Shown here piece after piece: positions 28,988 to 33,136 of a stretch of DNA of 64,000 nucleotides. A model generated the notes under the pieces. It saw nothing but the letters and a program-made list of their open reading frames with translations, did not search any database and was not told where the DNA came from. Within the stretch, counting starts at the first letter, position 1, and every line of letters begins with the position of its first letter. A program made the position numbers and the translations under genes. The stretch comes from Flavobacteriales bacterium (GTDB lineage: Bacteria; Bacteroidota; Bacteroidia; Flavobacteriales; TMED113). The stretch covers positions 1 to 64,000 of the forward strand of contig PAWM01000011.1 in assembly GCA_002714185.1 (NCBI GenBank), read 5' to 3'.

Positions 28988-30928
28988 ATGATAAAAGTAC
29001 GATTTCCAGACAATAATAGCCGAGAATTTCCTAGTGGAACAACATGTCTTGATATTGCTAAAAGTATTAGTGAAGGATTAGCTAGAAATATACTTGCAGC
29101 AAAAGTAGATAATAATATTGTTGATATTAATCAGCCTTTAATCAATAAAAATGAAATAAAATTAGAATTATTAACATGGCAAAATACTGAAGGTAAATCA
29201 ACTATGTGGCATTCAAGTGCACATTTAATGGCAGAAGCCATTGAGTTTTATTATCCCACAGCAAAATTCGCAATTGGCCCTGCAATAGAAAATGGATTTT
29301 ATTATGACATAGATTTTTCTGAAAACACTTCCTTTTCATCAGACGATTTTCCTAAAATAGAAAAGAAAATTATAGAATTAGCCAAAGAAAAAAACGAATA
29401 CAAAATTTCTTCTATATCTAAGCAGAAAGCTCTTGAACACTTTAAAGATAATGAATATAAATTAGATTTAATTAAAAATTTAAATGATGGAGAAATAACT
29501 CTTTATCAGCAAGGTAATTTTATTGATTTATGCAAGGGCCCTCACATACCTCATACAGGCTTTATAAAAGCTGTTAAATTAATTAATGTAGCAGGAGCCT
29601 ATTGGAAAGGAAATGAAAACAATAAACAACTAACTAGAATTTATGGTATTACATTTCCTAAAAAAAAGGAGCTCGATGAATACTTAATTAAATTAGAAGA
29701 AGCTAAAAAGAGAGATCATAGAAAAATTGGAAAAAATATGGCCTTATTTACATTTTCAAATAAAGTAGGACAAGGGCTACCATTATGGCTTCCAAAAGGT
29801 GCATATTTAAGAGATCAATTGATTGACTTTATGAAAAAAGCTCAATTAAAATTTGGATATGAGCCTGTAGTTACTCCTCATATAGGTTCAAAAGAATTAT
29901 ATGTTTGTTCAGGCCATTATGATAAATACGGAGAAGATTCATTTCACCCAATAAAAACTCCTGACCTAAATGAAGAGTTTTTTCTTAAACCTATGAACTG
30001 CCCTCATCATTGTGAAATATATAAATCAAAACCTAGATCATATAAAGAATTACCAATTAGATTTGCTGAATTTGGTACTGTTTATCGATACGAAAAAAGT
30101 GGTGAACTACATGGACTAACTAGAGTAAGAGGATTTACACAAGACGATGCACATATATTTGCTATGCCGGAACAGGTTGAAAAAGAATTTGAAGCTGTTA
30201 TTGATTTAGTTTTATATGTTTTAAAAGCAATGGGATTCAAAGAATATATTGCTCAAATTTCATTAAGAGACAAGGAAGATAAAGAAAAATATATTGGAAA
30301 TAATGAAAATTGGGAAATGGCGGAAAATGCAATAATTAACTCAGCTAAAAATAAAGGATTAGATACAATTATTGAATATGGGGAAGCAGCATTCTACGGT
30401 CCAAAATTAGATTTTATGATTAAAGATGCAATAGGTAGAAAATGGCAACTAGGGACTATTCAAGTTGACTATAATTTACCTGAAAGATTTAATTTGGAAT
30501 TTAAAGGAAAAGATGACAAAATGCATAGGCCTGTTATGATACATCGAGCACCATTTGGATCGCTGGAAAGATTTATAGCTCTTTTAATTGAGCATACTGG
30601 TGGAAAATTCCCACTTTGGCTGACACCAGATCAAATAATAATTTTACCAATAAGTGAAAAATATAATGAATACTGTTATAAACTTTCAAATTCACTAAAA
30701 AATTCCGATATTCGCGGGCACATTGATGATAGAAATGAAACAACAAGTAAAAAAATCAGAGATGCTGAATTAAGAAAAATACCATATATGATAATAATTG
30801 GTGAAAAAGAAGTTACTGACAACCTATTATCTGTCAGAGAACACGGTGGTAATAATTTAGGTATGATGAACAAAAATAAATTAATATCATTAATTGAAAC
30901 CAGAATTAATAATGAGTTAAATAAATAA
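28988..30928 (+). CDS. thrS: Threonine-tRNA ligase
   Basis: 646 residues, normal length. Residues 1-60 are the TGS domain (FPSGTTCLDIAKSI), then the editing domain with HSSAHLMAEA and the DLCKGPHIPHTG zinc-like motif, then the class II core with the catalytic zinc ligands in MNCPHHCEIY and the GTVYRYEKSGELHGLTRVRGFTQDDAH region. The C-terminal anticodon-binding domain ends the protein. It charges tRNA-Thr and edits Ser-tRNA-Thr. It heads the conserved thrS-infC-rpmI-rplT order. Confidence 0.96.
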   Translation: MIKVRFPDNNSREFPSGTTCLDIAKSISEGLARNILAAKVDNNIVDINQPLINKNEIKLELLTWQNTEGKSTMWHSSAHLMAEAIEFYYPTAKFAIGPAIENGFYYDIDFSENTSFSSDDFPKIEKKIIELAKEKNEYKISSISKQKALEHFKDNEYKLDLIKNLNDGEITLYQQGNFIDLCKGPHIPHTGFIKAVKLINVAGAYWKGNENNKQLTRIYGITFPKKKELDEYLIKLEEAKKRDHRKIGKNMALFTFSNKVGQGLPLWLPKGAYLRDQLIDFMKKAQLKFGYEPVVTPHIGSKELYVCSGHYDKYGEDSFHPIKTPDLNEEFFLKPMNCPHHCEIYKSKPRSYKELPIRFAEFGTVYRYEKSGELHGLTRVRGFTQDDAHIFAMPEQVEKEFEAVIDLVLYVLKAMGFKEYIAQISLRDKEDKEKYIGNNENWEMAENAIINSAKNKGLDTIIEYGEAAFYGPKLDFMIKDAIGRKWQLGTIQVDYNLPERFNLEFKGKDDKMHRPVMIHRAPFGSLERFIALLIEHTGGKFPLWLTPDQIIILPISEKYNEYCYKLSNSLKNSDIRGHIDDRNETTSKKIRDAELRKIPYMIIIGEKEVTDNLLSVREHGGNNLGMMNKNKLISLIETRINNELNK

Positions 30929-30952
30929 GAGTATAAATTAAAATAATAAGTT

Positions 30953-31513
30953 ATAGTAGTAAAAAGAAGAAATAAAGGAAGAAGACCTTGGAGAATTAAA
31001 AAAGAAAATCCTCATAAGATAAACGATTTTATCACTGCAGACACAGTAAGATTGGTCGGGGATAATATAGAAAATAAAGTATGTTTAAAAAACGAGGCTC
31101 TTCGAATTGCAAAAGAATTAGAACTAGATTTAGTTGAAATTTCTGCAAAATCTGATCCGCCTGTTTGTAAGATTATTGATTATAAAAAGTTTCTTTATGC
31201 ACAAAAAAAGAAACAAAAAGAAATTAAATCTAAAACTGCAAAAGTTGTAGTAAAAGAAATTCGTTTTGGTCCAAATACTGAAGAACATGATTATAATTTT
31301 AAATTAAATCATGCTAAAAAGTTTTTAGAAGATGGCTCAAAATTAAAAGCATATGTTTTTTTTAAAGGAAGATCAATTATCCATAAAGACAGAGGAGAAA
31401 TCTTACTACTTAAACTTGCTCAAGATTTGGAAGGAATCGCAAAAGTTGATGATTTACCAAAACTAGAAGGAAAAAGGATGATTATGATGTTATCCTCATT
31501 AATAAAAAAATAA
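30953..31513 (+). CDS. infC: Translation initiation factor IF-3 with a probable ATA start codon
   Basis: The frame opens after a TAA at 30947-30949. There is no ATG, GTG or TTG until a TTG at 31052, which lies inside the conserved [16 protein letters not shown] segment and would cut off the start of the N-domain. The upstream codons are a typical IF-3 N-terminus ([24 protein letters not shown]), so the start is probably the ATA at 30953 (186 residues), or less likely the ATT at 30995. IF-3 itself rejects non-AUG initiation, and E. coli infC uses AUU for autoregulation; the same logic fits here. The C-domain holds [14 protein letters not shown] and [18 protein letters not shown]. It prevents 30S-50S association and proofreads start codons. 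Confidence 0.85.
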
Positions 31514-31525
31514 AAAAATTGTATT

Positions 31526-31723
31526 ATGCCTAAAATGAAAACCAATTCAAGTGCAAAAAAAAGATTTTCTGTTACAAGCTCAGGAAAAATAAAACGAAAA
31601 CATGCATTTAAAAGTCATATTCTAACAAAGAAAACAACAAAACAAAAAAGAAGATTAACAAACACAGGATTAGTTGATAAATCTGATGAAAAAAATGTAA
31701 AACAACAACTCGCAATGCGATAA
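31526..31723 (+). CDS. rpmI: 50S ribosomal protein L35 (bL35)
   Basis: 65 residues, very basic. Begins [28 protein letters not shown], the bL35 signature, and ends in the usual QQLAMR-like tail. It is 12 bases after infC in the standard infC-rpmI-rplT order, and is followed by a 71-base gap that holds a strong hairpin. Confidence 0.96.
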
Positions 31724-31734
31724 ATTAATAACCA

Positions 31735-31780
31735 TGTAAACAGTAAAAAAAGAGTCTTATTAAAAAGACCACTGTTTACA
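31735..31780 (+). promoter_or_regulatory. Two-part hairpin upstream of rplT, candidate L20 autoregulatory element
   Basis: A perfect 10-bp outer stem pairs TGTAAACAGT (31735-31744) with ACTGTTTACA (31771-31780). Inside it a left-hand bulge of seven A (31745-31751) leads to a second stem: G31752-C31770, a bulged A, then GTCTT (31754-31758) with AAGAC (31765-31769), closed by an ATTAAA loop. There is no T-tract after it, so it is not a standard terminator. It ends 14 bases before the rplT ATG. In other bacteria L20 represses its own operon by binding an RNA that mimics its 23S rRNA site; that role is inferred here from position and shape only. Confidence 0.6.
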
Positions 31781-31794
31781 AAAAATATATAATT

Positions 31795-32142
31795 ATGCCA
31801 AGATCAGTGAATTCGGTTGCTGCAAAAGCAAGAAGAAAAAAAATATTAAAACAAGCAAAAGGGTATTTCGGAAGAAGAAAAAATGTATTCACAGTAGCTA
31901 AAAATGCTGTTGAAAAAGCACTTTCATATGCTTATAGAGATAGAAAGGTAAATAAACGTAATTTTAGATCATTATGGATTCAAAGAATTAATGCTGGTGT
32001 TAGAGAACACGGCCTATCATATTCTCAGTTCATGGGTTTAATTAAAGAAAAAGATATTAAATTAAATAGAAAAGTACTTGCTGACCTAGCTATGAATCAT
32101 CCTGAAATTTTTCAAAAAATTATTGAAGAGGTGAAAAAATAA
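31795..32142 (+). CDS. rplT: 50S ribosomal protein L20 (bL20)
   Basis: 115 residues. Begins [30 protein letters not shown] (long basic N-terminal extension that threads into 23S rRNA) followed by the globular part with [22 protein letters not shown] and LADLA. Needed for early 50S assembly and a known translational repressor in E. coli and Bacillus. It closes the thrS-infC-rpmI-rplT group, ending 4 bases before a convergent gene. Confidence 0.97.
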
Positions 32143-32146
32143 ACTT

Positions 32147-33136
32147 TTAATCACTTAAAGCCTCTAAAGCGGGAATATAGGAAGGATTTAACATTAAACA
32201 ATTCTTCCAGTCTGTATTTGCTTTTTCTTTTTGATTCATCAATTCATGCACATAAGCTCTAGCATGATAAGCTAATAAAAATGATTGATCCATTTGTAAT
32301 GATTTACTAAAATAATCAATAGCATCTAAATTATCACCTAATTGCATTGCACAAAAACCCATATTATAGTAATTATATTTTGGTTTTTCGGAAAATTCTA
32401 AACCTTTTAAATATAATGCAATTGCTTCTTCATACTGATTTATATTTTGTCTAAACTTACCATAGTTGTAATACACTTGTGGATCACTTGGATATATATT
32501 AATGATTCTTTCAAAATATTCCTCTGCTAGATTAGAGTTAAACTTTTGATTCATAGATGATGTATCGCTATATAATATTGATAACATCATTAGAGACTCT
32601 TTATCTTTAGCATTAGTATTAAGACTATTATTTAATAATTCAATTGCTAATTCATATTCCTTCATTTCTTTTAAATAAACAATAAATGAATTTCTTATTA
32701 GACCGTTTTGAAATACAATAAGAGTATCGATCATAGACTTACATTTAGGATCTTGGACAGCACATAATAGATTAACTAGCTTTTCTCTGCAATCTAAATT
32801 ATTGGGATTTAAATTTAAACACCGTTCCCAACTTTGCTTAGAGACCCGAGTCTGATTCAATTGAAAATAGATATTTCCTCTATTCAATAAAATATCAGCG
32901 TCATTTTTAAAGATTTTATATGCATTATCTATATCGTATTTGGCTAGATTTAATTGATTGTTTTCAAAATAATACTTAGCTCTCAAATTTAATAGAGAAA
33001 TATTTATGGAGTCTTTTTGTAATAATAAGTTTAAGGAATCTAAGACTGAACTATTTTCAACTTTTTTAATATTTTGACAATTTGATAAACACAAACAAAA
33101 AAAGATAAATAAAGTTATGAGTTTATTATTTTTCAA
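32147..33136 (-). CDS. TPR-repeat lipoprotein
   Basis: 329 residues. Lipoprotein signal with a hydrophobic N-terminus and LSNCQ (Cys near residue 20). The rest is a series of tetratricopeptide-like helical repeats (for example [84 protein letters not shown]). A protein-protein scaffold in the periplasm or outer membrane is likely; no specific partner can be named. It begins within the recA stop (4-base ATGA overlap), so it is co-translated with recA. Confidence 0.82.

Follow-up and report, generated by a model that had tools for sequence, protein, structure and literature searches.

A conserved hairpin between rpmI and rplT in Bacteroidia, a candidate L20 leader

Introduction

Ribosomal protein L20 is an early assembly protein. 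Its autoregulation is known in two RNA designs, one in E. coli and one in B. subtilis (PMC10931766), and a third has been proposed in Deltaproteobacteria. The locus described here raises the question of whether a hairpin directly upstream of rplT, the L20 gene, in a Flavobacteriales bacterium could be a further leader of this kind, or whether it is better explained in some other way. The window, meaning the whole stretch of DNA that was analysed, is 64,000 nucleotides long; the hairpin lies near its middle and was originally predicted from the window sequence.

The hairpin and its setting

The features of the locus are listed below, with the evidence for each in parentheses.

31526 to 31723, forward strand: rpmI, the upstream gene, encoding ribosomal protein L35 of 65 amino acids (open reading frame, sequence)
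31729 to 31733, forward strand: UAACC, the conserved 5' element, which corresponds to the 3' strand of 23S helix 40 (alignment A3, comparison with 23S)
31735 to 31744, forward strand: 5' strand of stem P1, UGUAAACAGU (sequence, fold, covariation)
31745 to 31751, forward strand: A7 bulge, of which the final AA together with G31752 forms the conserved AAG (sequence, relatives)
31752 to 31753, forward strand: G31752, partner of C31770, and A31753, the one bulged nucleotide here, which is conserved (G-C in 72 of 78 relatives)
31754 to 31769, forward strand: P2 hairpin, GUCUU-AUUAAA-AAGAC, with a covarying stem and a variable loop (fold, covariation)
31770, forward strand: C31770, partner of G31752 (alignment pair 36-99)
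31771 to 31780, forward strand: 3' strand of P1, ACUGUUUACA (sequence, fold, covariation)
31781 to 31794, forward strand: A-rich translation-initiation region, from P1 to the rplT start (relatives; PMC6847099)
31795 to 32142, forward strand: rplT, encoding ribosomal protein L20 of 115 amino acids, presumed to be the gene under control and to supply the ligand (open reading frame; a match in 142 of 148 genomes of the order)

Direct reading of the sequence confirms the predicted two-part hairpin with an A7 bulge at exactly 31735-31780. P1 consists of 10 perfect pairs between UGUAAACAGU (31735-31744) and ACUGUUUACA (31771-31780). The seven A residues (31745-31751) lie on the 5' side only, between P1 and the pair formed by G31752 and C31770; A31753 is bulged, and P2 then follows, with 5 bp between GUCUU (31754-31758) and AAGAC (31765-31769) around the 6-base loop AUUAAA. 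The minimum free energy of the hairpin is -13.4 kcal/mol (z = -4.4), and none of 200 shuffled sequences was equally stable. In this A+T-rich window, the 10-bp repeat is unremarkable by itself: over the whole 64 kb there are 19 inverted repeats with 10-nt arms versus about 15 expected, and 4 versus 2 expected when at least three G/C are required. Because such repeats are not rare here, relatives are needed to decide on the hairpin, and it is its position and conservation that raise it above chance.

The position had also been described correctly. The rpmI-rplT gap is sizeable, at 71 nt compared with 12 nt between infC and rpmI, and the ATG of rplT (31795) stands 14 nt past the end of the stem. 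In 78 leaders from relatives, the distance between the start codon and the end of P1 is 14-20 nt (median 15), and A is found at -12, -13 and -14 in 94-97%; as read from sequence, P1 abuts the A-rich initiation signal in the leaders. In F. johnsoniae, A-12 and A-13 promote initiation, and the A-rich motif has been suggested as a binding site for bS1 (PMC6847099). Shine-Dalgarno pairing is not used in Bacteroidota (PMC10931766). A Bacteroidota-type promoter was looked for near the rpmI-rplT gap and not found.

Further upstream, infC (30953-31513) lacks an ATG, GTG or TTG where it would be expected to begin. After the stop, its frame reads GUU AUA GUA GUA AAA AGA AGA, and the AUA is kept in two relatives (L003 and L004). 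Control of infC by IF3 is known, and a rare infC start codon would fit it.

Conservation among relatives

Relatives were taken from genomes of the order, 80 named genome contigs, and the wider class and phylum, and the DNA upstream of rplT was read; within the order, rplT was matched in 142 of 148 genomes. A common layout precedes the gene in nearly all Flavobacteriales and also in some Bacteroidales. (U)AACC comes first, then P1, which is interrupted by a mismatch or bulge; next are a bulge on the 5' side with AAG at its end, a single bulged base, P2, the C partner of the G, the 3' strand of P1, an A-run and AUG. The same layout is seen in loci labelled Reichenbachiella, Roseivirga, Algoriphagus, Cyclobacterium, Pontibacter and Hymenobacter. 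The A7 of the window is one version of the conserved bulge, which is usually shorter and has AAG at its 3' end in 71 of 78 relatives.

Two covariance models were used to follow the element. A search of 296 whole Bacteroidota genomes with model R1 (E <= 0.1) gave 37 matches, all 37 directly upstream of rplT and on the same strand. The broader model R2, run on genomes under strict filters that lose weak matches, was matched in 107 of 395 genomes of the class; nine of its further matches were examined and all nine lie at rplT. When R2 was run with ordinary filters on DNA upstream of rplT, it matched 97 of 110 loci of the order (92 of the first 100 and 5 of the next 10), 19 of 35 loci elsewhere in the class and none of 25 beyond it; some of the loci scored in these counts also served in building R2. 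Among the loci of the order without a match are some with a gap of just 1-13 nt. Several families of the class have no element, including one family, f18, in which it is absent from all 10 loci sampled. In another family (f19, 5 loci), a look-alike hairpin falls below the model threshold, with UUUAACGAG replacing AACC in several loci.

Variants of the layout were seen in places. In four of the f19 loci (L241, L244, L254 and L257), a divergent hairpin with a similar AAAG-bulge layout lies in the last 80 bases before rplT, and this hairpin is possibly a sister form of the leader. Long insertions in P2, with a gap of up to 177 nt, occur in L127, L157, L166, L167 and L017, where P1 and the AAG are intact. 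One genome (G081, contig C1, locus L191) has a second, diverged rplT with 68% identity and its own weaker leader match; since this genome is rated 5% contaminated, the second copy may be foreign DNA.

Covariation was assessed in an alignment (A2) of 31 diverse members, made with MAFFT from sequence alone. Paired cells amount to 88.8% in this alignment, compared with 66.3% when partners were shuffled and 33-46% when they were slid by 1-3 columns, and 12 of 14 pairs have two-sided compensatory changes. RNAalifold recovers P1 and P2 unaided, and 11 of the 12 pairs it predicts are compensated. Fitting 78 members to the model raises the figures to 90.4% paired (62.8% shuffled) and 13 of 14 pairs with two-sided changes, in an alignment that is biased towards the structure by the fitting. 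When the same rows were folded singly, with no alignment, z averaged -1.9 and was negative for 75 of the 78, and 75% of the model pairs were recovered. The original prediction had staked itself on relatives having both a hairpin at this place and compensatory base changes; the hairpin is present in the 97 order loci counted above, and the changes are found in 12 of 14 pairs. The hairpin is thus a real RNA element, conserved over most sampled Bacteroidia: a covarying structure tied to rplT and held in fixed register with its start codon.

Constant bases and the L20 site of 23S rRNA

While the stem pairs vary freely, certain bases hardly change. AACC or CACC is kept in 77 of 78 relatives, AAG in 71, the G-C pair after the AA in 72 and a G-C pair in upper P1 in 77. 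No other parts vary so little as AACC, this G-C at the top of P1, the AA in the bulge and the G-C pair that follows the AA.

These parts can be set beside the L20 site of 23S rRNA, a comparison that the original prediction had called for. No 23S rRNA gene was found in the window's own genome assembly, and the comparison was therefore made with the 23S of relatives. From position 976, E. coli 23S reads GGGAAACAACCC-AGA-CCGCCAGC-UAA-GG, and four Bacteroidota 23S genes read GGGAAAGAACCC-AGA-CCAUCAGC-UAA-GG at the same site; this stretch we take, by the 23S numbering, to be helices 40-41, the L20 site. It has the form GGG-loop-AACCC, a helix ending in AGC, UAA and then G-C, and each constant part of the leader has a counterpart in it, in the same order. 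The spacing from AACC to AAG is N13 in 23S and N14-N18 in 73 of 78 leaders. The AA dimer beside a G-C pair, as in 23S helix 41, is present (23S has UAAG). The C-terminal domain of L20 binds the junction of helices 40 and 41 (PMC6962249), and what L20 leaders are reported to have in common with rRNA is two G-C pairs and an AA dimer (PMC7247131).

The CC of AACC is near-invariant, and an exact upstream 4-nt complement (GGUU) is found in 37 of 96 relatives versus 7.6 expected; closing on the CC, it would yield two consecutive G-C pairs, as in 23S helix 40, in many relatives. For the window's own family, a search of the 45 nt upstream turned up no GG partner that complements AACC in full. The leader lacks an equivalent of the GAA that faces UAA in 23S, on the 3' side of the internal loop. 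All five 23S genes match simple AACC...TAAG patterns at the L20 site and at other places as well, and such matches are therefore support rather than proof; with a stricter pattern, the L20 site is the sole match in each of the four genes from Bacteroidota, and E. coli has one site more. The covariance model did not locate the L20 site when run on E. coli 23S, which might be expected since the strands of helix 41 are about 140 nt apart there.

A proposed L20 circuit and its alternatives

Taken from sequence comparison, the element is probably the operator of an autogenous L20 circuit, an rRNA-mimic leader placed in the rpmI-rplT gap. The leader would imitate the helix 40-41 site of 23S rRNA. 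Once there is more free L20 than there are 23S sites to take it up, the protein would bind the structure made of AACC, P1, AAG and P2 and keep the hairpin closed against the A-rich region at which rplT translation is initiated. The 30S subunit, which has no Shine-Dalgarno pairing to rely on here, would then be kept from starting on rplT, and L35, encoded upstream, would not be directly repressed. We infer four parts of this circuit: L20 as the ligand, rRNA mimicry, translational repression and independence from rpmI. The points against it are the patchiness of the 5' G-C hairpin, which mimicry would predict, the missing GAA, the looseness of the 23S patterns, the negative covariance-model search of 23S and the families of the class that have no element.

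An element with no ligand at all could instead set the basal translation of rplT or the stability of its mRNA, for example by leaving the A-rich start open or by serving as an RNase processing site between rpmI and rplT. A stem in fixed register just ahead of an A-rich start region would suit such a role, as would the tuning of translation in F. johnsoniae by secondary structure and upstream adenines (PMC6847099), but the near-constant unpaired AACC and AA and the particular G-C pairs, kept while other pairs vary, would be left unexplained, as would the occurrence of the element only at rplT; we consider this explanation unlikely. The ligand might also be a protein other than L20, such as L35, IF3 or another ribosomal protein. 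The genes for L35 and IF3 belong to this gene group too, and L20 is assigned from position and resemblance only; against this, the element comes after both rpmI and infC and directly before rplT, and its conserved parts match the 23S L20 site, making another ligand quite improbable.

A stable hairpin in an operon that is regulated by attenuation in Bacillus (PMC10931766) also suggests a transcription attenuator or terminator, like the B. subtilis infC leader. The original prediction had noted that no T-tract follows the stem and that it is not a plain terminator, and this agrees with our search, in which no terminator-like site was found in 30900-32200; the hairpin has an A-rich tail in place of a T-run, and with no terminator present attenuation becomes very unlikely. 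Nor does RF00558, the Firmicutes L20 leader, have a match in the window or its genome, or one over the cut-off in any of 198 Bacteroidota genomes. Matches below threshold occur in Bacteroidota, with none of the 15 loci examined near rplT, and the one in relative L117 is elsewhere than the element. Rfam as a whole gave no match in the window and none at the element in 16 relatives. Finally, a chance hairpin in A+T-rich DNA has in its favour that 10-nt inverted repeats are not rare in the window; it is refuted by the compensatory changes in relatives, and conservation and the exclusive association with rplT likewise leave it a negligible probability. Given the position in the rpmI-rplT gap, the lack of an Rfam match and of a terminator, and the conserved parts of the 23S L20 site, the original reading as a possible new L20 leader is the best one.

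A bolder claim would be that this is an independently evolved, class-wide L20 leader of Bacteroidia, with a helix 40-41 dock on its own hairpin scaffold, placed to block start selection that does not use Shine-Dalgarno pairing and controlling L20 with no direct control of L35. We hold this as an even bet. A further L20 design, spanning most of the Flavobacteriales sampled and a good part of Bacteroidia, would close a gap in a large phylum. If the proposal is true, it would be one more instance of the same rRNA mimic evolving repeatedly, and would offer a simple system for testing how a ribosomal protein blocks translation when it has no Shine-Dalgarno sequence to cover. The families in which the G-C receptor helix is missing would be a natural experiment on what L20 really needs.

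Comparison with known leaders

The original prediction held that known L20 leaders sit elsewhere in the operon and look different. This is right as to position. As to appearance, the element is less unlike them than was stated, because the AA dimer reported as common to L20 leaders is present, and the G-C pairs reported along with it may be present in many relatives. RF00558 has the presumed ligand, L20, in common with the element, as well as an AA dimer and possibly the G-C pairs that mimic 23S helices 40-41 (PMC7247131), but lies upstream of infC, is about 127 nt long and acts by attenuation through a terminator, whereas the element is a hairpin of about 50 nt directly before rplT with no terminator. 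The L20 operator of the E. coli rpmI-rplT operon (a pseudoknot and an irregular hairpin) resembles it in the irregular hairpin and in translational control by L20 through 23S mimicry, which for the element is proposed; the E. coli sites precede rpmI and repress L35 along with L20, whereas the element follows rpmI.

The Deltaproteobacterial L20 leader (Eckert and Weinberg 2020, PMC7247131), set against the Bacteroidia element by its description, has the same two conserved regions with a helix between them on its own scaffold and is likewise a proposed rRNA mimic, in a different lineage. For Flavobacteria, the same 2020 survey lists leaders for S4, S15 and S16, and it has no L20 leader in Bacteroidota (PMC7247131); these three come from the same lineage and are predicted to be autogenous, with other genes and ligands (PMC7247131).

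In the open-access literature, we found no fuller description of the element beyond one hint. A 2021 metagenome survey of the human microbiome contains HMP2_39, a 49-bp motif, mostly from Alistipes, directly upstream of L20 and named as a possible ribosomal leader (PMC8040213). In the text of that survey, HMP2_39 is a bare candidate, reported with no mimicry, wider distribution or mechanism (PMC8040213). By its description, it agrees with the element in phylum, position and approximate size (PMC8040213), and HMP2_39 may be the same element as it occurs in one lineage.
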